Positions 581 to 48,186 of a stretch of DNA of 51,497 nt are shown one piece after another. The stretch covers positions 1 to 51,497 of the forward strand of contig JAHLLM010000039.1 in the NCBI GenBank assembly GCA_020444175.1, read 5' to 3'. The notes under the pieces were generated by a model. That model saw only the letters and a program-made list of their open reading frames with translations, was not told the origin of the DNA and made no database searches. Position 1 is the first letter of the stretch. Each line of letters starts with the position of its first letter. This DNA comes from Desulfobulbaceae bacterium (lineage in GTDB: Bacteria > Desulfobacterota > Desulfobulbia > Desulfobulbales > SURF-16). Made by a program: the position numbers and the translations under genes.

Positions 581-2095
581 ATGTGTCATCGTAATAATTA
601 CAAATGTTATTTCATTGCGGTTTTATTATTTCTGGGCTTCGTAATCCTGGTCCTTTTTATTAATAAAGAAACCCGCGCTTATGCAATTTCCGAAGCAGAA
701 AAAAATATTGAAGACGCTCTGCTGACTCACCGTGCGATCCATTCTTTTGTTGAAGAAATCCAGAAGCCTGAAATTTATCGTCTCAAAGAGACGGGCAAGC
801 TCTACCCTGAATATTTTGCTCCTGAAATTCTTTCCTTTACCTATATTGCCCGCACCTTTAAAGAATTTCTCAACGAGGAAAGGCAGAAAGCAGGAATTGA
901 TGAAATTTATTTCAAACTTGCTGCCAGTAATCCTCGAAATCCGGTCAACAGAGCTGACGAAACAGAACTCGAACTTCTGAGACAGTTGAATGCTGGAGAG
1001 CTCACAGAGCTCAAAAAAGTGTATGAAAAAGATGGCAAAAAATATCTTTATTATGTCAAACCAATAAACCCCAATAAAGATTCCTGTATGCGCTGTCATG
1101 GCGACCCGTTAAGTGCACCGGATGAACTTCTTGATATGTATGGCGATAAAAAAGGTTTTCATGAGGATGTCGGTTTTATCAGAGCCATGGTTTCAATACG
1201 TATCCCTCTTGAACGATGGTTTGACAATGCCCACAAGACAACGGTTGTCCTGTCCTTTATTTCCTTTTGTGTCCTGTCGGCTCTCTATCTGACCATCGTC
1301 ATGTTTATGCGCAGGATTGACAGGCAGCAGCTTGAAATTGAAAAAGACTATTCCCTGCTTGAGGCAAATGCACGGCTCAGAGAAGAAGTCGAACGAATTA
1401 CCCGCCATGATTTGAAAAGTCCACTTAACGCGGTAATAAATTATCCCGATCTTATACAATCTGAGGGGAATTTGACGGAAAGACAGATAAAAGATCTCCG
1501 AGTCATAAAAGAAGCCGGTCTCAGAGTTTTGAACATGATAAATCTTTCCCTTGATCTCTATAAAATGGAATCCGGGACCTATCAATTTCTGCCCCATGAC
1601 GTCAATGTCATTACGGTTTTAAAAAATATAGAACAGGAATATGCTGAGATTCTGAAACGTAAAAAAATCAGGATCAGATATTTTGTGGATGAAAGAGATT
1701 TGATGCAAAATCAGATTCTTTATATAAAGGGAAAAGAACTGCTTTTCTATTGCCTGCTTTCTAATCTTATCCAGAATGCCATTGAAGCATCCCCGGAAGA
1801 TGGTATCATTACCCTTTCTTTGACAACAGGAGAGGAGACAACGATCACAATCCACAATTCCGGCACCGTGCCCTATGAAGTAAAACATACTTTTTTTGAG
1901 AAGTATGCAACCCATGGGAAAAAGCATGGCACCGGACTTGGCACATATTCCGCCAAATTAATTACAGAAACATTGGGTGGACACATAGCCATGGATTCAG
2001 CCCCTGAGAAAGGAACAACGCTTACCGTATCTTTTCCGTCGGCAAAAAAGAAAGAGCATAACGTATCTGCCCATTTGTCTCCAACACCACTATAG
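581..2095 (+). CDS. Membrane sensor histidine kinase with periplasmic DUF3365 heme-c domain
   Basis: 504 residues. TM helix at about 10-28, periplasmic domain about 29-217 of the Tll0287-like/DUF3365 type, second TM about 219-243, then cytoplasmic kinase. The periplasmic domain carries CMRCH (169-173), a CxxCH c-type heme site, followed by GDP as is common in this family. The kinase has an H-box with His276 (TRHDLKSPLN), an N-box (NLIQNAIEAS) and a G-box (GTGLGTYSAK). Known role of the family: heme-based redox or gas sensing and autophosphorylation. The signal and the partner regulator are not shown here; no response regulator is adjacent. The next gene starts 42 bp downstream on the same strand, so co-transcription is possible. 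Confidence 0.9.
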   Translation: MCHRNNYKCYFIAVLLFLGFVILVLFINKETRAYAISEAEKNIEDALLTHRAIHSFVEEIQKPEIYRLKETGKLYPEYFAPEILSFTYIARTFKEFLNEERQKAGIDEIYFKLAASNPRNPVNRADETELELLRQLNAGELTELKKVYEKDGKKYLYYVKPINPNKDSCMRCHGDPLSAPDELLDMYGDKKGFHEDVGFIRAMVSIRIPLERWFDNAHKTTVVLSFISFCVLSALYLTIVMFMRRIDRQQLEIEKDYSLLEANARLREEVERITRHDLKSPLNAVINYPDLIQSEGNLTERQIKDLRVIKEAGLRVLNMINLSLDLYKMESGTYQFLPHDVNVITVLKNIEQEYAEILKRKKIRIRYFVDERDLMQNQILYIKGKELLFYCLLSNLIQNAIEASPEDGIITLSLTTGEETTITIHNSGTVPYEVKHTFFEKYATHGKKHGTGLGTYSAKLITETLGGHIAMDSAPEKGTTLTVSFPSAKKKEHNVSAHLSPTPL

Positions 2096-2137
2096 GCTGT
2101 TGAAGCCGGGTGAGCAATTTTTTTGAAAAGGATTGTT

Positions 2138-3052
2138 ATGAATAGACGACAGTTTCTTAAGCAGGTTTCACTCTGGTCAGCGGGGATGACACTCACTATC
2201 CCCCATTTTAAGATTACACCGGACGTCTTTGCCAAAGAGAACCGGTCAGCGACTCTATCCATTGCCGAGGGAAAGGATTATATGTCTCTGGTAAACAGGG
2301 TCCTTGACTCTCTGGGCGGCATAAAGAATTTTGTCAAACCTAAAGACAAGGTCGTTATTAAGCCGAATATCGGCTGGGACCGAAACCCGGAACAGGCGGC
2401 AAACACACATCCTCTTATTGTCAAAGCCCTTGTCCTGCAGGCCCTTTCTGCCGGCGCATCCGAGGTGAAAATTTTTGATCGAACCTGCAACGAAGAAAGG
2501 CGATGCTACGTCAACAGTGGAATACAAGAGGCACTCAAATCAATTGATGACAGGAGAGTCAAATATTTTCATCCTGATTCAAGAAAATTTATTCCTGTTA
2601 CTATCGAAAGAGGCAAGGCTGTCAATCGTCTGGAAATATACAAAGACGCTCTGGATGCTGATTGCTATATTAATGTGCCGGTTGCCAAACACCATGGTTT
2701 AAGCAAATTGACACTGGGACTTAAAAACAGCATGGGTGTTCTGGGAGGCAACCGGGGACAGATCCATCATAATATCGGACAGAAACTGGCTGATCTGGCC
2801 ACGGTAATACGCCCGAAACTGACAGTTATCGATGCAACCAGAATACTTCTCAGAAACGGTCCCCAGGGTGGAGACCTAAATGACGTCAAGGTGATGGACA
2901 CGGTCATTGCTTCAGCTGACCCGGTCGCAGCCGACGCCTATGCCACCACTCTTTTCGGTATGCAGCCTGATGAAATAGATTCTACTGTTTCCGCATACCG
3001 CATGGGGCTTGGAGAAATGAATCTTGCCAAAATGCAGATATTAAAATCCTAA
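2138..3052 (+). CDS. Tat-exported DUF362 protein
   Basis: About 304 residues from the ATG at 2138, which has an AAGG-like ribosome site just upstream; a TTG at 2123 is in frame but unlikely. The N-terminus NRRQFLKQ followed by a hydrophobic stretch is a twin-arginine signal, implying export of a folded, cofactor-bearing protein. The body matches the DUF362 fold (VIKPNIGWDRNPEQAANTHP region, later LGLKNSMGVLGGN). DUF362 proteins are often fused to or paired with 4Fe-4S ferredoxin domains. Here the iron-sulphur partner is encoded separately by the next gene (3194). The reaction is unknown; a periplasmic redox role together with the polyferredoxin is inferred. Confidence 0.85.
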   Translation: MNRRQFLKQVSLWSAGMTLTIPHFKITPDVFAKENRSATLSIAEGKDYMSLVNRVLDSLGGIKNFVKPKDKVVIKPNIGWDRNPEQAANTHPLIVKALVLQALSAGASEVKIFDRTCNEERRCYVNSGIQEALKSIDDRRVKYFHPDSRKFIPVTIERGKAVNRLEIYKDALDADCYINVPVAKHHGLSKLTLGLKNSMGVLGGNRGQIHHNIGQKLADLATVIRPKLTVIDATRILLRNGPQGGDLNDVKVMDTVIASADPVAADAYATTLFGMQPDEIDSTVSAYRMGLGEMNLAKMQILKS

Positions 3053-3193
3053 CCCAGATATATCGGAAAAGGAATTACGGTTTTAGGGATAAGTCCCTTA
3101 ACAGTAGAGGCAAGTTATATATTTCAAAAAAATTTTTAGATTTCTTGTCACAAAGAACACGAAAATAATTTCTAAGGGACTAAATCTCTGAAC

Positions 3194-4768
3194 ATGCCCA
3201 AAAAGGGAATTGTTTATACCGGATTGAGGCGATTTTCCCAGCTCCTCGCCCTCTTTATCTTCTGTTTTTTATTTATAAAGACAGATTACAACGGCACGGA
3301 TGAGATGACCTATGCTGTGAATCTGATTTTCCGCCTTGACCCCTTACTCTTTCTCAGCTCATCTCTTGCTGCGCGTACATTTATCAGTCTGATGATGCCG
3401 GCAGTGGTCACCATAATTCTCACCATTGTATTGGGCCGTTTTTTCTGCGGATGGATATGTCCCATGGGAACACTGCTCGACGGAACGCATAAACTTGTCT
3501 TTCCATCACGTCCAGCAGAAGATTCTCCTTTCAAGCCGTTTAAATATTTCCTGCTCGTTTTAATTGTGACAGGTGCCCTGTTCGGTTTTCCGATTGCCGG
3601 CTATTTTGATCCTTTTTCTATCCTGGTCAGAGGACTTTCCCTGGCCTTTTATCCTGCCTTTAATATTCTTAACACCTCATTCTTCACCTTTACCTATCAG
3701 CAGGCTCCAGAATGGGTGAACCTGCTCAGCGAGCCTGTTTACGCTTTTCTTAAACAGACTGTTCTTCCTTTTCACCAGAAGTATTACGACCTGGCACTTT
3801 TTTCATTTTTTATTCTTGTCGCTGTCTTTTGGCTGGAAGCTTTGGGACGCCGTTTTTTCTGCCGCAATATGTGTCCTCTGGGCGCCCTGTTTTCTGTTGC
3901 CTCCCACTTTTCCCTGCTGCGCGGCAAGGCCGGCTCAACATGCGGTAAATGCAAAAATTGCCAGGATGTTTGCCGCATGGCTGCCATTGACGAAAAACGC
4001 CAGATTTCGATGAATGAATGCATTCTGTGCATGGACTGTATCGAAAAATGTCCAGGTGATAAAATATCATTTCAATTTTTCAAACCGCCTCGTCGTAAAA
4101 AAAGCTTTGCACTCTCAAGAAGATCTTTTGTCGGGGCACTGCTTGCAGGCGTAACCCTTCCTCTTTTTGCACGCACAAGAACAATGGCAAAGCGTCCTGA
4201 TCCTTTTCTGATCAGACCGCCTGGTTCATTGCCTGAAGAAAAATTCTTAGGTCATTGCGTTCGATGCGGAGAGTGCATGAAAATATGTATCGGCAATGCG
4301 CTTCAGCCTGCTTTTCTTGAGGCCGGACTGGAAGGCATGTTCTCCCCCGTGCTCAAGGCTCGTACAGGGTATTGCGAATATAATTGCACCCTCTGCGGTC
4401 AGGTCTGTCCCACCGGGGCAATACGAAAACTTGCTCCCGCTGAAAAAAAATCGACCAAGATCGGTCATGCCTATTTTGACAAGAACAGATGTCTTCCTTA
4501 TGCCAAGGGCGTGCCCTGCATAGTGTGTGAAGAGCACTGCCCTACCCCGGAAAAGGCTATACAGTTAAGGGAAAAAACAGTTCTGGGAAACGATGGGATA
4601 GAGAGACGAGTCAAACAACCTTATATTATCGACAAATACTGTACCGGCTGCGGTATCTGCGAGAACAAATGCCCACTTCCAGACGATTCCGCCATAAAAG
4701 TCACCAGTGCTGGAGAAGCGCGCCATCCCGAAAGCGCCCTGCCTGTCATAACCATTAATCCTTATTAG
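3194..4768 (+). CDS. NapH-type membrane polyferredoxin fused to Tat-like ferredoxin domain
   Basis: 524 residues. The N-terminal half has several TM helices and the NapH/RdxA-type pairs CGWICPMG and CRNMCPLG, then a cytoplasmic-type 2x[4Fe-4S] cluster region (CGKCKNCQDVC, CILCMDCIEKCP). At about residue 310 there is a second targeting-like segment, LSRRSFVGALLAGVTLPL, resembling a Tat signal. Beyond it lies a NapG/NapF-like ferredoxin domain with four more Cys groups (CVRCGECMKIC, CTLCGQVCP, CEEHCP, CTGCGICENKCP). This reads as a fusion of a membrane quinol-linked NapH module and a periplasmic NapG-like module. With the DUF362 gene upstream it likely forms an electron-transfer pair; donor and acceptor are unknown. 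Confidence 0.88.
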   Translation: MPKKGIVYTGLRRFSQLLALFIFCFLFIKTDYNGTDEMTYAVNLIFRLDPLLFLSSSLAARTFISLMMPAVVTIILTIVLGRFFCGWICPMGTLLDGTHKLVFPSRPAEDSPFKPFKYFLLVLIVTGALFGFPIAGYFDPFSILVRGLSLAFYPAFNILNTSFFTFTYQQAPEWVNLLSEPVYAFLKQTVLPFHQKYYDLALFSFFILVAVFWLEALGRRFFCRNMCPLGALFSVASHFSLLRGKAGSTCGKCKNCQDVCRMAAIDEKRQISMNECILCMDCIEKCPGDKISFQFFKPPRRKKSFALSRRSFVGALLAGVTLPLFARTRTMAKRPDPFLIRPPGSLPEEKFLGHCVRCGECMKICIGNALQPAFLEAGLEGMFSPVLKARTGYCEYNCTLCGQVCPTGAIRKLAPAEKKSTKIGHAYFDKNRCLPYAKGVPCIVCEEHCPTPEKAIQLREKTVLGNDGIERRVKQPYIIDKYCTGCGICENKCPLPDDSAIKVTSAGEARHPESALPVITINPY

Positions 4769-4964
4769 CCCCATCCTTTATTTGGTTAATTTAAACGTTC
4801 TTCAAACGGCAAATTCAGACAAACTATTTTCCTATCGAACTATTGACTTTTACCCAGAGTTTTGCGCAGAATAATGTATCACGTTCATAAACTTCATCCT
4901 GTTGATAGAATAAATTATCATTAACGCTCACAGTGTTTGTAAGAAACACAGGGAGGAGAAACGT

Positions 4965-7655
4965 ATGTTGAAAAGATTATACTGTTTTTTGGCAGTTATT
5001 CTTTCAATGCAGCTTTGCGGATGGGATATCTCATGGGCTTCATCGTCTGGTACCCACTGGAGTTATGGTGGACATGACGGTCCTGCAAACTGGGGAAGCT
5101 TAAACCCGGAATATGCGGTGTGCAGTGCCGGCAGAAGCCAGTCTCCCATAGATATCTCCCATACAGTGCCGTCCAGCATGGGGGATCTCGAATTTGACTA
5201 TAGAAACACCCCACTGCGTCTCATTAACAACGGCCATGCGATACAGGTTAATTACGGCACAGACTCATTCATGCGTATGGGAGGCAAGGTTTATAAACTT
5301 CTGCAATTTCATTTCCACAGTTTGAGCGAGAATACACACCATGGAAAAAACACAGCCATGGAAGTCCATCTTGTTCATAAGAATGACCAAGGTGAATTAG
5401 CTGTTGTTGCCGTGTTTATCGAAGAAGGAAAATACAATCCCTTTATTCAAAAATTATGGGACAACATGCCTCATTCCGTGGGACAGGAGAACGTGGTCAG
5501 CCAGCTTCAGGTCAATGCTCTTGAACTGCTGCCGGCCAACGGTTCCTATTACCACTGGTCCGGCTCCCTGACCACTCCTCCCTGCTCCGAAGGGGTAATG
5601 TGGTATATGATGAAAGACCCCATTGAAGTTTCTGCCGATCAGGTCAAGCAGTTCGTTTCAATTATCGGCTTGAATAACCGTCCTGTCCAACCCCTGCACG
5701 GCAGGCAGGTCTATGAATTTACGACAGGCAGGGTAGTACAGACAACAATAGCTCATTCGCCTCACTCCCCCTCTCAACAAACCGCACATTCCGCTTCTGA
5801 CGGCCATACGGCAGCGTCCAATGTTGCTCCGCCAGCCAGTCATTCAACAGATGCTCATGCATCAAATGCTTCAATGAATCGACTGCAGAGAGTTTCCCAT
5901 GAAAGAGGAGACAGTCAAAGGGGTGAAGAAGCAAAAACTACTGAACATGTGGAGGCAAAAACAACCATGACATTCTGGATCATACTTGCAGTCGGTTCTC
6001 TCGTTGTCCTTTCACTCCTTCTCTTCCTCTTTCGCGGAGGCAGCGGTCTTGCCGCCCTTGACCGCATGAAAGTCGGAGCCCGGGTCGGCCTGTTGTCCGG
6101 CGTTCTTATTTTTCTTATTATTTCTGTTTCGACATTTGCTGTTCTTTCCATGAAATCCATTGGCGTAGAGCTGGCAGATATAGATGAGGAATATCTCCCT
6201 CTGCTTGAAACTGCAAATTCAATCACTGAACATTCTCTGGAGCTTGAAATTGAGTTTGAAAAGGCCCTGGCCCATGGCGAAAGAAACGACATGCAGGGGT
6301 TTCAGGCGGCTGTCTCCGAATTTGAGAACATCACTCCATTGATCGATACTGAATTACAGAAAGGCGAGGAATTAGCCGAAAAAGGCGCTCGTCTCGCAAG
6401 GACTCCAGAGGAAAGACTTGAGTTTGAGAAAATAGATCAAGCGATCATGAAAATTGAAAAACAACATGATGAATACGATAAGGATGCCCGGAATATCTTT
6501 GACTTGGTATTTGCCGGAAAACTCATTGAAGCTGAAAATCTTGTAGATGGAGTGGAAGAATCAGGCCGGGAAGTTTCCCATGAACTGGAGAAACTTGTTG
6601 AGGAGGTCGATGGTTTCATTGACAGTGCGGTATCCAACGCCGAGCATCATGAACAGAATGCGACAAGGATAATGCTCCTTCTCTCATTGTTGGCCGCAAT
6701 TATCGGCAGTATCCTCGCTTTTCTTATTACCCGGGGCATTAACCTGGCTCTTCTTACCGCCTTTGATGCGGCTGACAATGTCGCCACAGCAAGCCAGCAG
6801 CTTTCATCAACTGCAGAAGAACTTTCCCAGGGGGCAACGGAACAGGCAAGTTCGGTTGAAGAAGCATCTGCCTCCATTGAACAGATGGCTGCCAATATCC
6901 GGCAAAATGCAGATAACGCGCAACAGACGGAACGTATATCAAAAATGGCTGCTGCTGATGCTGAACAGTCAGGAACGGCGGTAAGCCAGACCGTAAATGC
7001 CATGAAGGATATTGCAGATAAGATCTCCATCATTGAGGAAATTGCCCGCCAGACCAATCTTCTCGCTTTAAATGCCGCTATTGAGGCAGCCCGGGCCGGT
7101 GAGCATGGCAAAGGTTTTGCCGTTGTTGCATCCGAGGTCCGCAAACTTGCTGAACGCAGCCAGGCTGCTGCTGCGGAAATCGGTCAATTATCATCGAACA
7201 GCATGATGGTAGCTGAACAGGCTGGCGATATGCTGAAAAAACTTGTTCCGGATATCCAGAAGACATCTCAGCTTGTCGAAGAAATCAGCGCCGCAAGTGC
7301 GGAACAGGATATTGGAGCAGAACAGATCAACACAGCCATCCAGCAACTTGATCAGGTTATTCAGCAGAATGCTTCCGGAGCAGAGGAAATGGCTGCAACT
7401 TCAGAGGAACTCTCCGGTCAATCCGACATGCTTAAAAGTACTGTGTTAAACATGGTCCATGTGGATTCAGGACACCTTTCCAATACAGCAATGAGCTTTG
7501 AAAGGACCAGACAACTCCCGGCGAGAAAAAATATTTTGGGGAAAAATACACACCCCGCCAAACAAGCACCGGATAAAAATGAAGCAGAGCATGGTGTTAA
7601 ACTGCAACTTGAAGATGGCCGCGATCAGTTGGATGATAATTTCACCAAATATTGA
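4965..7655 (+). CDS. Alpha-carbonic anhydrase / methyl-accepting chemotaxis receptor fusion
   Basis: 896 residues with a strong ribosome site (GGGAGGAG) before ATG. Signal peptide 1-25. Residues 30-255 are a complete alpha-carbonic anhydrase: zinc ligands His116, His118 (QFHFH) and His135 (EVHLVH), Glu133, proton-shuttle position His91 (NNGHA), gate Thr203 (SLTTPPC) and the usual Cys53/Cys207 pair. A His/Ser/Pro-rich linker (260-332) leads to TM1 (335-356), a short basic loop, TM2 (374-396), a helical sensor-like bundle (398-566), TM3 (568-589) and an MCP signalling domain (600-830). The hairpin tip is [17 protein letters not shown]. No clear HAMP is seen and there is no C-terminal NWETF-type tail. 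The topology puts the enzyme in the periplasm. A CO2/bicarbonate/pH-taxis role is inferred. cheR follows. Confidence 0.95.
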
Positions 7656-7682: not shown

Positions 7683-7817
7683 CCATCCGCCAAAGTAATA
7701 TCAACTAATTACATACGTGTCGGCGGCGGTTGAGAGGTTTTTTTGCGAAACCGTCAAATATTAACAAGTTCACTCTGTGTCAACGGCGGTTGACTGTTTT
7801 TCACGAAACCGTCAAAG
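7683..7817. repeat. Two tandem hairpin repeat units (family A)
   Basis: Unit 1 (7683-7764) and unit 2 (about 7760-7817) share the pattern tgtc.rcggyggttg, a short spacer, then GTTT-loop-AAAC and cgtcaaa. In unit 2 the arms TTGAC.GTTT and AAAC.GTCAA give a hairpin of about 9 bp. A third unit lies at 9001-9076, on the other side of cheR. They look like REP-type dispersed intergenic palindromes; the first T-rich loop could also terminate transcription. Confidence 0.7.
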
Positions 7818-7829
7818 AGTAATGAGCTG

Positions 7830-7871
7830 TCAAAGGCATGGGGAAAAACTCATAATTCCCTGTGCCTTTGA
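7830..7871 (+). terminator. Hairpin after the carbonic anhydrase-MCP gene
   Basis: Inverted repeat TCAAAGGCA ... TGCCTTTGA enclosing a second short stem GGGGAA/TTCCC. It is followed by an A-rich rather than T-rich stretch, so termination strength is uncertain. It separates the receptor gene and repeats from cheR. Confidence 0.5.
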
Positions 7872-7977
7872 TAAAAGAAAACTATCTGAATGAATTTGAA
7901 AAGAAATTTTCTTTACTGTATTAACCAGCTTACTTTTTTATGTTGTTCCCTTCTTGACCTGTACGCCTTTTTTGACA

Positions 7978-8844
7978 ATGACTCCTCCGGCGACTTCTAA
8001 ACAGTCCACCTCATTATTTGCGATGTCTGATAAAGAATTTCAGGCATTCAGTGAATTTGTCTATACGGTATGCGGCATCTTGCTGCCACCAGCCAAAAAG
8101 ACGATGCTGACCTCCAGGCTGATGAAAAGACTGAAAAAACTCGGACTGCGTTCCTTTTCTGAATACTACGATTATATCAACAGCGAGGAGGGCCAGGTTC
8201 TTGAATTGACAGCAATGATCAACTCCGTAACAACGAATAAAACTGATTTTTTACGTGAACCGAAACATTTTGAATATCTGACCAGCAAGGTCTTTCCTGA
8301 AATTGTTCTTAAGGAACGAAACCATTCAGCAGAGCGGAGAATAAATTTCTGGAGCGCCGGATGCTCAAGCGGTCAGGAGCCATATACCATTGCCATCATA
8401 GCCAGTGAATTTTTTGAAAAACACAAAAAATTCAGCTATTCAATTACGGCAACGGATATCTCGACAAAAGTCTTGAACACTGCAGACCTTGCAATTTACG
8501 AGCATGACGTTATCTCCCCTCTTCCCATGCCCCTGAGAAAAAAATACCTCCTGAGAGGAAAAAACAACAATCAGGTTCGCATAATTCCACAACTCCGATC
8601 CAGGGTGAAGTTTCAGCAATTGAACTTTATGGACAAAAAATATAATTTCCCCACCCTGATGGATATTGTTTTCTGTCGTAATGTCCTCATTTATTTTGAT
8701 AAAAAAACCCAGATTCAGGTCATTTCGCGAATTTGCAACTGCCTGAAACCGGGAGGGTATCTCTTTTTAGGTCATTCAGAAACAATACAGGGTTACGACC
8801 TGCCACTGCAGAATATGGGAGGAACTATTTTCCGTAAAACATGA
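7978..8844 (+). CDS. cheR: CheR-type chemoreceptor glutamate methyltransferase
   Basis: About 288 residues from the ATG at 7978. A TTG at 7954 and an ATG at 8023 are alternatives, and none has a clear ribosome site. The N-terminal helical CheR domain (DKEFQAFSEFVY onward) is followed by the SAM-dependent methyltransferase domain: NFWSAGCSSGQEPYTIAI (SAM-binding motif), DIVFCRNVLIYFD and LGHSETI. It transfers methyl groups from S-adenosylmethionine to receptor glutamates for adaptation. It follows the carbonic anhydrase-receptor gene on the same strand and is the only other chemotaxis gene in the window, so that receptor is its likely substrate. No cheA, cheW, cheY or cheB is nearby. Confidence 0.93.
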   Translation: MTPPATSKQSTSLFAMSDKEFQAFSEFVYTVCGILLPPAKKTMLTSRLMKRLKKLGLRSFSEYYDYINSEEGQVLELTAMINSVTTNKTDFLREPKHFEYLTSKVFPEIVLKERNHSAERRINFWSAGCSSGQEPYTIAIIASEFFEKHKKFSYSITATDISTKVLNTADLAIYEHDVISPLPMPLRKKYLLRGKNNNQVRIIPQLRSRVKFQQLNFMDKKYNFPTLMDIVFCRNVLIYFDKKTQIQVISRICNCLKPGGYLFLGHSETIQGYDLPLQNMGGTIFRKT

Positions 8845-9000: not shown

Positions 9001-9076
9001 CATCCGCTAACGCAATATCAACAAGTTACATCATGTCAGCGGTGGTTGCGTGTTTTTTTGCGAAACAGTCAAATAT
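9001..9076. repeat. Hairpin repeat unit (family A, third copy)
   Basis: Near-identical in layout to the unit at 7683: catccgc.aa, then aatatcaacaagttacat, then gtcagcggtggttg, then GTTTTTTTGCGAAAC and agtcaaatat. The GTTT/AAAC arms around a T-rich loop are kept. It lies just upstream of the phosphofructokinase start (9101), so it brackets cheR together with the copies at 7683-7817. Confidence 0.7.
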
Positions 9077-21348: not shown

Positions 21349-22851
21349 ATGTTAAAGAAAAACATTTCTTTTGCAATAACATTAGTAGGATCTTTTTTTA
21401 TATCGGTAGCGACCTGTTCTGCATTTGGCTCTTTCGGTTCCGATGTGAACAACTTATGTGCTCCGCAACAACCCTATACCGGCAGTTGTTCACTCTGCCA
21501 TACAGGGGGCTATTCAAGTAGCACACCAGCTAAAACTGCGTATTCAGCTGGTGGTACCACCTTAACGGATTATTTCTGTCCGTCCGGCCCGACCTGTACC
21601 GATGATGATGGAGATACCTTTGCCATTGAAGGTGGTGAATGCGGTCCCATGGATTGCAACGATGCTGATGTTGCGGTTAACCCATCTGCCGCAGAAAACT
21701 GTACAGACGGCATTGATAATGACTGTGACGGTTTAATTGATGCTGCTGATCCTGATGCGGTAGGCTGCCCCCCAGTCTGTACCGATGTTGACGGCGATGG
21801 TTTCGCCATTGAAGGCGGTGCCTGTGGCCAGACTGATTGTAACGACGGTGACTCAACCGTCAACCCCTCTGCTGCCGAGATATGTGATGACGGTGTAGAT
21901 AACAACTGTGACGGTATGATTGATGAAAACTGCGTCACTCAGCCGACCTGTACTGATTCTGACGGTGATGGTTTTGCCCTTGAAGGTGGTGAGTGCGGAG
22001 CCGTTGACTGTGATGATACCGATAGCTCAGTTAACCCTGATGCGGCAGAAAATTGTACAGACGGTATTGATAATAACTGTAACGGTCTTGTAGATGCTGT
22101 TGACGATACAGCAGTAAACTGCCCGCCGATCTGTAGCGATGCTGACGGTGATGATTATGCCTTGGAAGGCGGTGTCTGTGGTCCGGTTGACTGTGATGAC
22201 AACGACATTGACGTCAATCCGGGTGCAGTGGAAATCTGTGATGACGGCATTGATAATGATTGTGATGAACTGATCGACGAGGGTTGTGATACAACCTGTA
22301 CAGATCTGGACGGAGACGGTTTTACCGATGCTGCATGTGGCGGTACTGACTGCAATGATTCTGATTCTGCAATTAACCCAGGTGCCTCAGAAGTATGTGG
22401 AAACGGTGTTGATGAAAACTGTAACGGCGAAAACGATGATGTATGCGTAACATGCCCTGAAGGCGGCGTGTTAATCATCAAGAAAGCCGAGTATAAATTC
22501 GAGGCCGGAAAGCTTGAGGTTAAGGGGCGTTCCAACATTAATACACTCATAACAGTCGTAGATGCTGAAACAGGAAATGTTCTTGCCGAGGATGTAAAAG
22601 TCAAGGGCGGGAAATGGAAAGTAAAGATCAAAAGACTGAATGCCAATGATGCCCCGGTGATCGTAGAAGCCATCAACTCAGAAGGCTGCTCAACCGAACG
22701 CGAAGTTAAAGTCGATGGTCGTCCTGAAAGAAAAAAAGACCGTGATGACGATGACGACGATGACGACGATCATCACAAAAAAGGCGATGATGACGATGAT
22801 GATGATGACGATCATCACCAAAAAGGCGATGATGATGACGACGACGATTAA
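21349..22851 (+). CDS. Exported MopE-repeat metal-binding protein with one c-type heme site and Asp/His tail
   Basis: 500 residues; AACGAGG-type ribosome site. Signal peptide 1-25. CSLCH at 47-51 is a CxxCH heme-c motif. Residues about 83-370 hold five MopE-type repeats, each with a Ca-binding-like DxDGDGF loop, a CNDxDxxVNPxAxE segment and a DNxCDGxID segment, with paired cysteines. Residues about 378-460 look like an Ig-like beta domain. The last 35 residues are almost all Asp and His in two near-identical blocks (about eight or nine Asp, then HHKKG or HHQKG). Related MopE proteins bind copper or calcium. An extracellular metal-binding redox protein is inferred. Confidence 0.88.
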   Translation: MLKKNISFAITLVGSFFISVATCSAFGSFGSDVNNLCAPQQPYTGSCSLCHTGGYSSSTPAKTAYSAGGTTLTDYFCPSGPTCTDDDGDTFAIEGGECGPMDCNDADVAVNPSAAENCTDGIDNDCDGLIDAADPDAVGCPPVCTDVDGDGFAIEGGACGQTDCNDGDSTVNPSAAEICDDGVDNNCDGMIDENCVTQPTCTDSDGDGFALEGGECGAVDCDDTDSSVNPDAAENCTDGIDNNCNGLVDAVDDTAVNCPPICSDADGDDYALEGGVCGPVDCDDNDIDVNPGAVEICDDGIDNDCDELIDEGCDTTCTDLDGDGFTDAACGGTDCNDSDSAINPGASEVCGNGVDENCNGENDDVCVTCPEGGVLIIKKAEYKFEAGKLEVKGRSNINTLITVVDAETGNVLAEDVKVKGGKWKVKIKRLNANDAPVIVEAINSEGCSTEREVKVDGRPERKKDRDDDDDDDDDHHKKGDDDDDDDDDHHQKGDDDDDDD

Positions 22852-42855: not shown

Positions 42856-43912
42856 GGGGTCGGACCACGTTAAGTGTTTGGAAATTATAAATTTATATCC
42901 CACAAATAGGCGTTTTTACCCACTATATTATATGGGGTCGGACCACGTTAAGTGTTTGAAAATTATAAATTAATATCCCACAAATAGGCGTTTTTACCCG
43001 CTATATCGTCTTTTTTGATATCAAAATCAGCATTATAGGTCGCCTTATTTTCTCGGAGCTGAAAGCCTTCATCACTTTCAATAATTTTCCGTCCCTTGGC
43101 CAATATGCCCAATTTCTCTTTAATCCTTTCGGTAAAGCTTTTGCTTCCGACCGCTATGCTTTCAGTCCATTGAGCTTGCCTTTGACTGAAGTCGCCACCA
43201 TTCACCAGAGCTTCACGCACCCATTCTTTGTGAGATTTTTGAAATGCATCATACGTTGCAAACCCTGCTAATTCAACAAGTTTTTGGTATGCGATCAACA
43301 CCGACTTCCTGCGTGGTTTCTGAATCTCTCCATAACCACCAAAAGGCCATTCAGACGGATGTGAGACTACACCAGCACGCACCATATTAAAGTCAATATA
43401 CACAAGACACCTGAGTAGATGGTCTTCCGATTCCACAGCTGTTGCATGATAACGGTCTTCCCAGAAAGCTCCTTTCCTGTTTTTTCTCAAATTGTATTCT
43501 TGAGCAGTTCTTCCGGCAACTAATTTGATTGATTGAGGTATGACGTCTCTTCCCTGTTCATCCAGGACAAGCAAGTGAATATGGTTTGAGGTAACGGTAT
43601 AATTTAGAATGATCAAGCCGTAGCGTCTTTTTGCCTCAAAAAGCCATTGAAGCCATTTTCGCCTATCTTTTACCAGTTTAAGCAAGAATTCTCGTTTGTG
43701 GCATCGATGTGTGAGATGCCATACTTGTCCGGGAATATAATGTCTATTGGCTCTGGCCATAATTGCTACAAATTCCTTATAATCACGTTTTTGACCCCAA
43801 AATCATGATTATAAGACCATAAAAGGACTGTTTTTAACACTTATTCTTTATATTTTCAGCTAATTAGCGTGGTCCGACCCCAGCGTGTGCGTAATTAGCG
43901 TGGTCCGACCCC
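42856..43912 (-). mobile_element. RAYT transposon copy 1 with duplicated ends
   Basis: The left end GGGGTCGGACCACG occurs twice (42856-42869 and 42934-42947) within a duplicated segment of about 78 bp. The right end CGTGGTCCGACCCC occurs twice (43868-43881 and 43899-43912) in a 31-bp tandem duplication. Left and right ends are perfect 14-bp inverted repeats of each other. The only gene inside is the Y1 transposase. Confidence 0.8.
42963..43760 (-). CDS. REP-associated tyrosine (Y1, IS200-like) transposase, copy 1
   Basis: 265 residues, intact. Start MARANRHYIPGQVWHLTHRC is the typical RAYT opening. The HuH metal motif is TSNHIHLLV, and the catalytic Tyr is probably in RTAQEYNLRKNRKG or the following helix. 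WEDRYHATAVESEDHLLRCLVYID is the strongly conserved block. The C-terminal extension of about 100 residues is typical of RAYTs rather than IS200 itself. These enzymes cut single-stranded hairpins at REP-like ends. Identical or near-identical copies follow at 44952-48455 and 48775-49257. Confidence 0.92.
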   Translation of the reverse strand: MARANRHYIPGQVWHLTHRCHKREFLLKLVKDRRKWLQWLFEAKRRYGLIILNYTVTSNHIHLLVLDEQGRDVIPQSIKLVAGRTAQEYNLRKNRKGAFWEDRYHATAVESEDHLLRCLVYIDFNMVRAGVVSHPSEWPFGGYGEIQKPRRKSVLIAYQKLVELAGFATYDAFQKSHKEWVREALVNGGDFSQRQAQWTESIAVGSKSFTERIKEKLGILAKGRKIIESDEGFQLRENKATYNADFDIKKDDIAGKNAYLWDINL

Positions 43913-46599: not shown

Positions 46600-48186
46600 A
46601 TGATTTCCGCACAATGCAACCTGTCTGAAAATACGGTTGACCTCAAAGAAATAATCCAGTCTCAAGGGCAGCAGCTCGAGTCAAAAAATCAGGAAATAGA
46701 GCGACTCGAGGAAGAAAACCGTTTGCTGCGTCAGGCCCTGTTTGCGCCAAAATCTGAAAAGCGTAAAGACCAGGAACCCTCTCCACAATTACCGTTATTT
46801 GACATCCCGGAAAATCCTCCTGCCGACGAAGAGTCCAAGCAGGAAGAAGAAATCATTGTCCCGGAGCATACCCGCAAGAAAAAAGGACGCAAACCCATTC
46901 CTGACCATCTGCCAAGAATCGAGATTGTTCATGATATTGCTGATGATGAGAAAAAATGCGCTTGCGGTTGTGAGTTGAGCCGGATAGGTGAGGATATTTC
47001 TGAAAAACTTGACATTGTTCCGGCCGTCATGAGGGTTATCCGCCATGTGCGCCCTAAATACGCCTGTAAAAACTGTGAAGGAGTTGAGGATGACAGTAAG
47101 AGTGTAAAGATTGCCCCGGCTCCACCCCAGATCATTCCCAAAGGCATTGCCACAGCAGGTTTACTGGCTTATGTAGTTACCGCCAAATTTTGCGATGCCC
47201 TGCCTTTTTATCGCCAAGAAAAACAATTTATCCGTTTGGGAGTCGATATTCCCAGGCAAACCATGTGCAACTGGACGATGATTGCAGCAGAGAGATGTCA
47301 GCTTCTGCTTGATTTGTTACATAAAGAAATTCGAGGTGGCCCTCTGATCCATGTCGATGAAACAACAGTACAGGTTCTTGACGAGCCGGGACGCAAGGCA
47401 ACCCAGAAGTCCTACATGTGGATCTTTCGCGGTGGTGCGCCTGATCATCCTGCTGTGGTGTATCAATATCATCCCACCCGGTCAGGAGATGTGGCGAAGC
47501 TTTTTCTTGACGGCTATCATGGTGTCGTGCAGACCGATGGTTACAAGGGTTATGATTTCCTGGATAGCTGGCAGGATATCCTCCATGTAGGCTGTTGGGC
47601 TCATGCCAGGCGTAAATTTGTCAAAGCCTTGGATGCAGGTACGAAAAAAGCGAGCCGTCGGGCCAACAAGGCTCTTACGTTTATCCGCAACCTTTATAGT
47701 CTGGAAAAATTTGTCCGACAAAATGAACTTAAACCTGATGACATCTACAGTCTACGGCAGGAACAGGCAAAGCCAATTCTTGAAAAGATGAAGGCATGGC
47801 TCATGGAGCGCAAAAGCAAGGTTACACCGTCAAGCCTGTTTGGTCAGGCTGTTCATTATTGCCTGAATCAGTGGCACCGACTCAGCAACTATATAGAAAG
47901 TGGTAACGCCGCCATTGACAACAACGCAGCAGAGAATGGTATTCGGCCATTTGTGATTGGTCGCAAGAACTGGCTCTTTTCCGGCACCCCTGAGGGAGCT
48001 GAGGCTAGCGCTTTACTATACAGTTTGATAGAAACCGCCAAGGCCAATAATCTTGAGCCCTTCAGCTACTTGCGTTTTCTGTTTGAGAAGCTGCCGACTA
48101 CTCCCATGGATAAGCTTGCCACCCTTCTGCCAACAAAACTTACTCTGGTAGATTTGACCTTGCCAGATACTCCCAGTGGGATTTAA
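46600..48186 (+). CDS. tnpC: IS66-family transposase TnpC
   Basis: 528 residues. N-terminal leucine-zipper-like coiled coil (KEIIQSQGQQLESKNQEIER), Zn-finger region (CACGCELS ... YACKNCEG), then the DDE domain with the first Asp in LIHVDETTVQV, the second in VVQTDGYKGYDFL and the Glu in NNAAENGIRPFVIGRKNWLF. The typical C-terminal IS66 domain follows. Full length and uninterrupted, so the element may still be active. Confidence 0.96.
   Translation: MISAQCNLSENTVDLKEIIQSQGQQLESKNQEIERLEEENRLLRQALFAPKSEKRKDQEPSPQLPLFDIPENPPADEESKQEEEIIVPEHTRKKKGRKPIPDHLPRIEIVHDIADDEKKCACGCELSRIGEDISEKLDIVPAVMRVIRHVRPKYACKNCEGVEDDSKSVKIAPAPPQIIPKGIATAGLLAYVVTAKFCDALPFYRQEKQFIRLGVDIPRQTMCNWTMIAAERCQLLLDLLHKEIRGGPLIHVDETTVQVLDEPGRKATQKSYMWIFRGGAPDHPAVVYQYHPTRSGDVAKLFLDGYHGVVQTDGYKGYDFLDSWQDILHVGCWAHARRKFVKALDAGTKKASRRANKALTFIRNLYSLEKFVRQNELKPDDIYSLRQEQAKPILEKMKAWLMERKSKVTPSSLFGQAVHYCLNQWHRLSNYIESGNAAIDNNAAENGIRPFVIGRKNWLFSGTPEGAEASALLYSLIETAKANNLEPFSYLRFLFEKLPTTPMDKLATLLPTKLTLVDLTLPDTPSGI

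Follow-up and report, generated by a model that had tools for sequence, protein, structure and literature searches.

What would a bacterium do with a chemoreceptor that carries a whole carbonic anhydrase (CA) at its N-terminus? We addressed this question for a gene in a 51,497-nucleotide stretch of DNA from a Desulfobulbaceae bacterium (contig JAHLLM010000039.1), the whole of which is called the window here. On the forward strand, an ATG-started frame at 4965-7655 encodes 896 aa with zero internal stops, bearing out the single uninterrupted frame of the original prediction; the extent of the gene is supported by Pfam matches and by seven further full-length relatives. A putative ribosome-binding site, GGGAGGAG, lies 5' of the ATG at a computed position of 4951-4958 (+). 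From N- to C-terminus the protein consists of a signal peptide, an alpha-CA, a linker, an extra transmembrane (TM) helix and a complete TM-bundle-TM chemoreceptor. The signal peptide (residues 1-26, 4965-5042, +, with a probable cleavage site placed by eye) could be read as had been proposed, although its hydropathy peak lies under the cut-off of 1.6 which was used for calling TM helices.

The alpha-CA domain covers residues 31-251 (5055-5717, +). Pfam Carb_anhydrase (PF00194) matched residues 39-251 (E 3.7e-43, 148.4 bits against a curated cut-off of 27), and the nearest solved structures for this part were bacterial alpha-CAs (6im0, E 4.4e-64). In an alignment of 82 CA domains the catalytic-set stretch was located at 5235-5576 (+), and the head was found to have H91 (codon 5235-5237), Q114, H116 (5310-5312), H118 (5316-5318), E122 (5328-5330), E133 (5361-5363), H135 (5367-5369), T203 and T204 (5571-5576), as well as the Cys pair C53 and C207. 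In human CA II numbering we take these to be H64 (H91), Q92 (Q114), H94 (H116), H96 (H118), E106 (E122), E117 (E133), H119 (H135), T199 (T203) and T200 (T204). The zinc His trio (H94, H96, H119) is therefore present as H116, H118 and H135, the gate T199/E106 as T203 and E122 and the shuttle H64 as H91, and all the catalytic residues which had been named from the sequence were found.

The three TM helices that had been proposed were recovered by hydropathy at residues 337-355 (5973-6029, +), 376-394 (6090-6146, +) and 569-587 (6669-6725, +). The first of these is the extra helix, which would return the chain to the cytosol, and the second is the first TM helix of the classical receptor part. 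A third helix is demanded by the topology, since the head would be periplasmic and the receptor chain begins in the cytosol. Pfam MCPsignal (PF00015) matched residues 659-798 (E 3.7e-33, 115 bits), and the nearest solved structure for the C-terminal part was MCP I, presumably the serine receptor Tsr; both confirm the MCP signalling domain of the original prediction. The cytoplasmic signalling hairpin (residues 602-827, 6768-7445, +) is 7 residues shorter per arm than that of Tsr, as seen from two 7-residue gaps in the alignment to MCP I. Pfam found no HAMP domain in the window protein (P0001) and, among the seven other fusions, only P0008 had one; P0006 has a 48-residue insertion at the place of HAMP. 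The window protein ends in NFTKY (7638-7652, +), and a comparison of C-termini found the form xFxx[YF] in 6 of the 8 proteins. E. coli receptors carry the motif NWETF at the C-terminus, and by analogy xFxx[YF] is a possible CheR tether. An AlphaFold2 model of P0001 alone (mean pLDDT 42.9) was set aside.

We searched whole genomes with PF00194 and then measured how long the open frame was at each match, using genome sets which overlap. This search for alpha-CA plus MCP architectures, which had been suggested as a check, found seven more full-length fusions (CA-MCPs), making eight with that of the window, all confirmed by reading the DNA and by Pfam: three more in the order of the window (probably Desulfobulbales), three in Nitrospirota and one in Deferribacterota. 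In the genome of the window the fusion was the single alpha-CA match. Two of the 22 genomes of the window's family matched PF00194, the second with an unfused frame of 262 aa. In the order 61 of 257 genomes matched, with four frames of 900-913 aa (G000, G246, G244 and G206), and the class-level set was the same 257 genomes. The fusion is therefore rare in its own order (4/257, or 5 if a head in G245 is counted). The carriers are not all independent, as G244 and G246 belong to one genus. The head in G245 is cut at a contig end, adjoins a kinase frame resembling by eye one beside the G246 fusion, and was excluded from the count of eight; further fusions may hide in frames cut in this way.

Outside the order, 8 of 29 genomes, chosen because they lie behind 30 of 40 loci matching the MCP part, matched PF00194, with long fusions in G279 (924 aa) and G268 (885 aa). 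The class of G279 gave 41 matches in 230 genomes and long frames in G279, G487 (904 aa) and G370 (994 aa), and an evenly drawn set from its phylum gave 80 in 395, with long frames only in G279 and G370 and without G487 among the matches. G279 (L029) is Ca. Magnetocorallium paracelense of the Nitrospirota, and G487 and G370 were taken as Nitrospirota because both turned up when its class was searched; G268 (L015) is a Denitrovibrio sp. of the Deferribacterota, in whose class 1 of 47 genomes matched. The class of Malonomonas rubra (G262) had 12 matches in 277 genomes, none above 325 aa, and the order of Thiorhodococcus drewsii (G273) had 109 in 210, where the longest frame, of 728 aa, was spurious. 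Long CA frames in G869 (728 aa, a spurious overlapping frame), G277 (487 aa) and G237 (431 aa, with a split CA match filling the frame end) were rejected as fusions. A CA was also present in Desulfogranum japonicum (G278, L028) and, at identical coordinates, in G084 of the window's order, from which this order was taken to be Desulfobulbales.

When the full protein was used as a query against genome contigs, 40 loci matched the MCP part (from about query residue 496 on), and tblastn at E 1e-3 found no CA in them. No stretch of the viral contigs matched any of six exact CA peptide patterns. Among plasmids, 2170 records matched the full-protein query, none over 80% of the query in one place, and one of the best 10 of these 2170 had a CA, with CA and MCP as separate genes. 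On the Skermanella mucosa plasmid pSM-2 (Pseudomonadota; L146:2872-5733) a HAMP-MCP begins 27 bases after an unfused alpha-CA, and a second MCP comes next; the CA and first MCP were confirmed by Pfam, and this unfused pairing was seen once.

Since seven further assemblies show this architecture, a chance or chimeric contig is very unlikely. Third-position GC does vary along the window gene (CA 0.53, linker 0.33, receptor parts 0.43-0.45), as it might if two genes had been joined by an assembly chimera or an accident of annotation, but an old fusion would fit this equally well, and overall GC is alike across the parts (0.46-0.49). We give the chimera next to no credence.

The linker between head and receptor (residues 248-336, 5706-5972, +) contains 8 His in 89 residues, or 9% against 3% in the rest of the protein, so that its description as His-rich holds as an enrichment but a modest one. 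Across the eight proteins the linkers are 71-108 residues long and contain 3.6-14.8% His, compared with 1.9-3.2% elsewhere. Such an enrichment would suit a zinc or other metal sensor, in which Zn(II) bound by the CA site and the His-containing linker is signalled to the receptor. The Denitrovibrio linker, with only 3 His in 84 residues, argues against this, and alpha-CAs bind zinc very tightly, which would make the CA site a poor reversible sensor; we regard a metal sensor as very improbable.

We also compared the heads of the different fusions with each other. The zinc His trio is complete in 7 of the 8 (the exception being G279), compared with 71 of 74 stand-alone CAs, and all 11 catalytic or structural positions checked are intact in 6 of the 8. 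In the Magnetocorallium head (G279, P0005) the zinc ligand H94 is replaced by Gln and the shuttle H64 by Arg, and the head of the Nitrospirota genome G487 (P0007) has E117Q; both receptors are full-length despite these substitutions. Catalysis may thus be dispensable in some members. The conservation of residues in the other six heads speaks for catalysis in most members, though not as a strict need.

These substitutions bear on the main rival to a catalytic role, namely that the head is a binding sensor, in which occupation of the zinc pocket by CO2, bicarbonate or some other anion would alter the contact of the head with its own or a neighbouring bundle. A solute-binding protein acts on Tar in a comparable way. 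That the substituted heads remain on full-length receptors favours binding, whereas the full residue set of six heads includes H64 and would be superfluous for binding alone, and with the long linker and the separate TM helix, head and bundle are less likely to be tightly coupled. A parallel for binding exists in RPTPgamma, a putative bicarbonate sensor whose CA-like domain, according to the accessible part of the source, is without the catalytic histidines (PMC7541084). We judge a pure binding sensor to be somewhat unlikely, though it deserves to be taken seriously.

The helical sensor bundle which had been proposed for residues 398-566 (6156-6662, +) is upheld by its flanking TM helices, by a bundle profile (A3) and by a Pfam 4HB_MCP_1 match at residues 367-546 (E 1.6e-5), whose 25 bits are slightly below the 27-bit cut-off; in P0002, P0003 and P0004 the match is above the cut-off. 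Profile A3 was built from seven bundles, all from CA-MCPs and including that of the window protein. Over 40 chosen genomes it found bundle proteins without a CA in 5 of the 8 CA-MCP genomes and in none of the 32 others (E <= 1e-20), with weak matches near 1e-5 in 3 of these 32. The co-occurrence has a Fisher value of 8.5e-5, a statistic which ignores kinship and uses a profile derived from the CA-MCPs themselves. By Pfam, the CA-less bundles sit on MCPs in G487, G000, G246 (two) and G279 (weak, 35.8 against 34.6 bits), on a histidine kinase in G370 (L133:628-2223) and on a protein of the guanylate-cyclase type in G279 (L144:448-2202); a second G279 match of the latter kind is a 580-aa frame outside the Pfam scan. 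Judged from these domain contexts, the bundle appears to be an input module common to three output types (MCP, kinase and cyclase), and its occurrence on such proteins without a CA suggests an independent sensing role. Near-invariant positions are P412, L413, I497, F551 and E563 (13-14 of 14 rows), and E402, E486 and E531 are kept in 12 of 14 rows. In proteins that have this bundle but no CA, the frame opens no more than 21 residues ahead of the position aligned with Met368 (6066-6068, +), so the head, linker and first TM helix look as if they had been added to a complete receptor. In the G370 CA-MCP the sensor is of another, longer kind and a HAMP domain is present, and the CA head has therefore been combined with more than one type of receptor.

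In a tree of CA domains (8 heads and 74 stand-alone, from part of the CA hits only, with L001 as a duplicate, L075 as a fragment, L076 and L085 omitted), seven of the eight heads formed one clade (support 96/94). The Denitrovibrio head was sister to the adjoining stand-alone CA (support 100/99), and this grouping indicates that the fusion probably arose twice. Constraining the eight heads together cost 25.9 log units (p-AU 0.039), a modest rejection of a single origin, and two fusions are probably the simplest reading of these trees; a single fusion would also do if the neighbouring CA had later overwritten the Denitrovibrio head through gene conversion. In a tree of 14 bundles 9 of 11 inner branches stayed open (p-AU 0.163), which speaks neither for nor against a shared origin of the Denitrovibrio fusion. 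In the Denitrovibrio sp. (L079:7381-10801, minus strand) the stand-alone CA lies directly before the CA-MCP and their open frames overlap, and this pair probably preserves the traces of a duplication and a fusion.

At least one che gene was found close to the fusion in 7 of the 8 carriers. In the window this is cheR, the next gene on the same strand, 298 bases downstream (7954-8844, +; PF01739, E 9.6e-61), and it was the only che gene seen beside the CA-MCP. The gene orders elsewhere were: for G487 CheA, fusion, CheW, CheR, CheD and CheB; for G206 fusion, CheW, CheA, CheR, CheD and CheB; for G246 fusion, CheA, CheW, CheR, CheB and a HEAT-repeat/receiver protein; and for G244 fusion, CheA and CheW. 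G279 has CheA near the fusion, and G268 has CheW after it and a stand-alone CA before it. For G370, the frames of a 17-kb stretch were read and showed no obvious che gene. The HEAT-repeat and receiver protein ends the G246 che cluster at L072:11557-13164, and similar-looking frames follow the che clusters in L073 and L074 (by eye). Flagellin genes were found in 9 of 9 genomes (the eight carriers and G245, a set made of carriers only), and the bacterium of the window probably swims.

Several other features of the window were observed. An imperfect repeat element is present in two copies between the CA-MCP gene and cheR (7697-7822), with a 32-nt copy-like stretch occurring once after cheR (9041-9072, 3 mismatches), and a terminator-like hairpin lies at 7830-7871. 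Upstream, 581-4768 encodes a Tll0287-like sensor kinase with a CxxCH motif (by eye), a DUF362 protein and a multi-4Fe-4S protein. In the protein at 21349-22851, Asp/Cys-rich motifs of the type CTDxDGDxFAxEGGxCG recur and the Asp-rich tail is long (by eye); this protein is perhaps metal-binding. Transposase-like genes at 42963-43760 and 46600-48186 are presumably REP-associated and of the IS66 type, respectively.

It could also be argued that the receptor does no more than anchor the CA at the inner membrane or cell pole, for carbon metabolism or pH buffering, and passes on no signal. The fusion is the sole alpha-CA match (PF00194) in 6 of the 8 carriers (G000, G206, G244, G246, G279 and G487), which would fit a plain metabolic role too, and alpha-CAs are common in the same groups, as in the 61 of 257 genomes of the order. 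However, in G370 and G268 the fusion is accompanied by a stand-alone CA, and no long fused frame occurs in 57 of the 61 CA-bearing genomes of the order (counting G245 as unfused) or in 38 of the 41 in the class of G279. A mere tether would also leave unexplained why the sensor, TM helices and signalling tip are all kept, why che neighbours occur in 7 of the 8 carriers and why the likely second fusion was again to an MCP. We consider such a tethered enzyme improbable. Recurrence in eight genomes, the likely second origin, the che neighbours and the flagellin genes support a role in taxis.

The reading that we prefer, at slightly less than even confidence, is that the gene product is a chemoreceptor for the CO2/bicarbonate/proton system, with the CA converting CO2 beside the bundle. 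As the sequence shows, a CA with a signal peptide has been placed ahead of a complete TM-bundle-TM chemoreceptor, with the linker and one extra TM helix in between; it would hydrate CO2 or dehydrate bicarbonate right beside the sensor. Hydration of CO2 takes tens of seconds when uncatalysed; with the CA in place, the local proton or bicarbonate level would track CO2 within seconds, on the timescale of chemotaxis. The bundle would sense the product of the CA and relay it to CheA via the signalling hairpin, and clustering of receptors might concentrate the enzyme at the array. The outcome would be taxis in gradients of CO2, bicarbonate or pH, which could be of use to anaerobes that make or fix CO2. 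We counted for this model the intact frame, the seven further fusions, the 11 of 11 residues in six heads, the nearby che genes, the likely second origin, the CA-less bundles, the flagellin genes and the Skermanella CA and MCP gene pair, and against it the substitutions in G279 and G487, the lone cheR of the window, the lack of a noticed che gene in G370, the 4HB match below its cut-off and the six genomes in which the fusion is the sole alpha-CA match. It should be noted that a CA merely speeds an equilibrium and adds nothing in fully equilibrated water. The wider idea is put forward more tentatively still: that this is an enzyme-coupled chemoreception, in which an on-board catalyst turns slow, poorly sensed CO2 into a fast proton/bicarbonate signal, and which arose two or more times, some members (Magnetocorallium) having turned into non-catalytic sensors afterwards.

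The original prediction also held this design to be undescribed. We found no description of a CA-MCP fusion among the matches listed from the open-access PubMed Central literature (titles and starts of abstracts), and to that extent the claim stands, but the design is not confined to the window, as seven more genes have it. The architecture may have automatic entries in domain databases. The genome paper on Magnetocorallium mentions MCPs, and the term 'carbonic anhydrase' is absent from its main text (PMC10278575).

The head shares with bacterial alpha-CAs (PF00194; 6im0, 6eki, 4c3t) the whole domain, the zinc histidines, the Thr-Glu gate, the shuttle His and the Cys pair, and differs from them in forming the N-terminal part of a signalling receptor with three TM helices. 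Receptors of the Tar/Tsr type (4HB_MCP_1/TarH) have the same TM-bundle-TM layout and MCP signalling hairpin, whereas in the window protein this layout is preceded by a periplasmic enzyme, a linker and a further TM helix, HAMP is without a match and the hairpin arms are shorter. To our knowledge, the sensing of CO2 or bicarbonate gradients by free-living bacteria is poorly understood, and we know of no enzyme domain in the Helicobacter pylori chemoreceptor TlpA. Bicarbonate and acid are among the reported signals of TlpA, according to the accessible part of the source, and its sensor is a dCache domain (PMC8406319), in contrast to the CA head and bundle found here. The CA-MCP family supplies a concrete gene, mutable residues and natural variants (intact, H94Q/H64R and E117Q) which could separate catalysis from binding. 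The mammalian receptors RPTPgamma and RPTPzeta have one TM helix. They likewise carry a CA-like domain on the extracellular side of a one-chain signalling receptor, but with a phosphatase output and with the catalytic histidines missing, which the CA-MCPs keep in 6 of the 8 heads. By Pfam the window protein has MCPsignal and no phosphatase domain, and the likeness to RPTPgamma is one of way of working, with no claim of common receptor ancestry. As bicarbonate sensing has been put forward for RPTPgamma, in the accessible parts of the sources as a putative function (PMC7541084; PMC11215419), the CA-MCPs offer a bacterial counterpart to the question whether its CA-like domain is a bicarbonate sensor.
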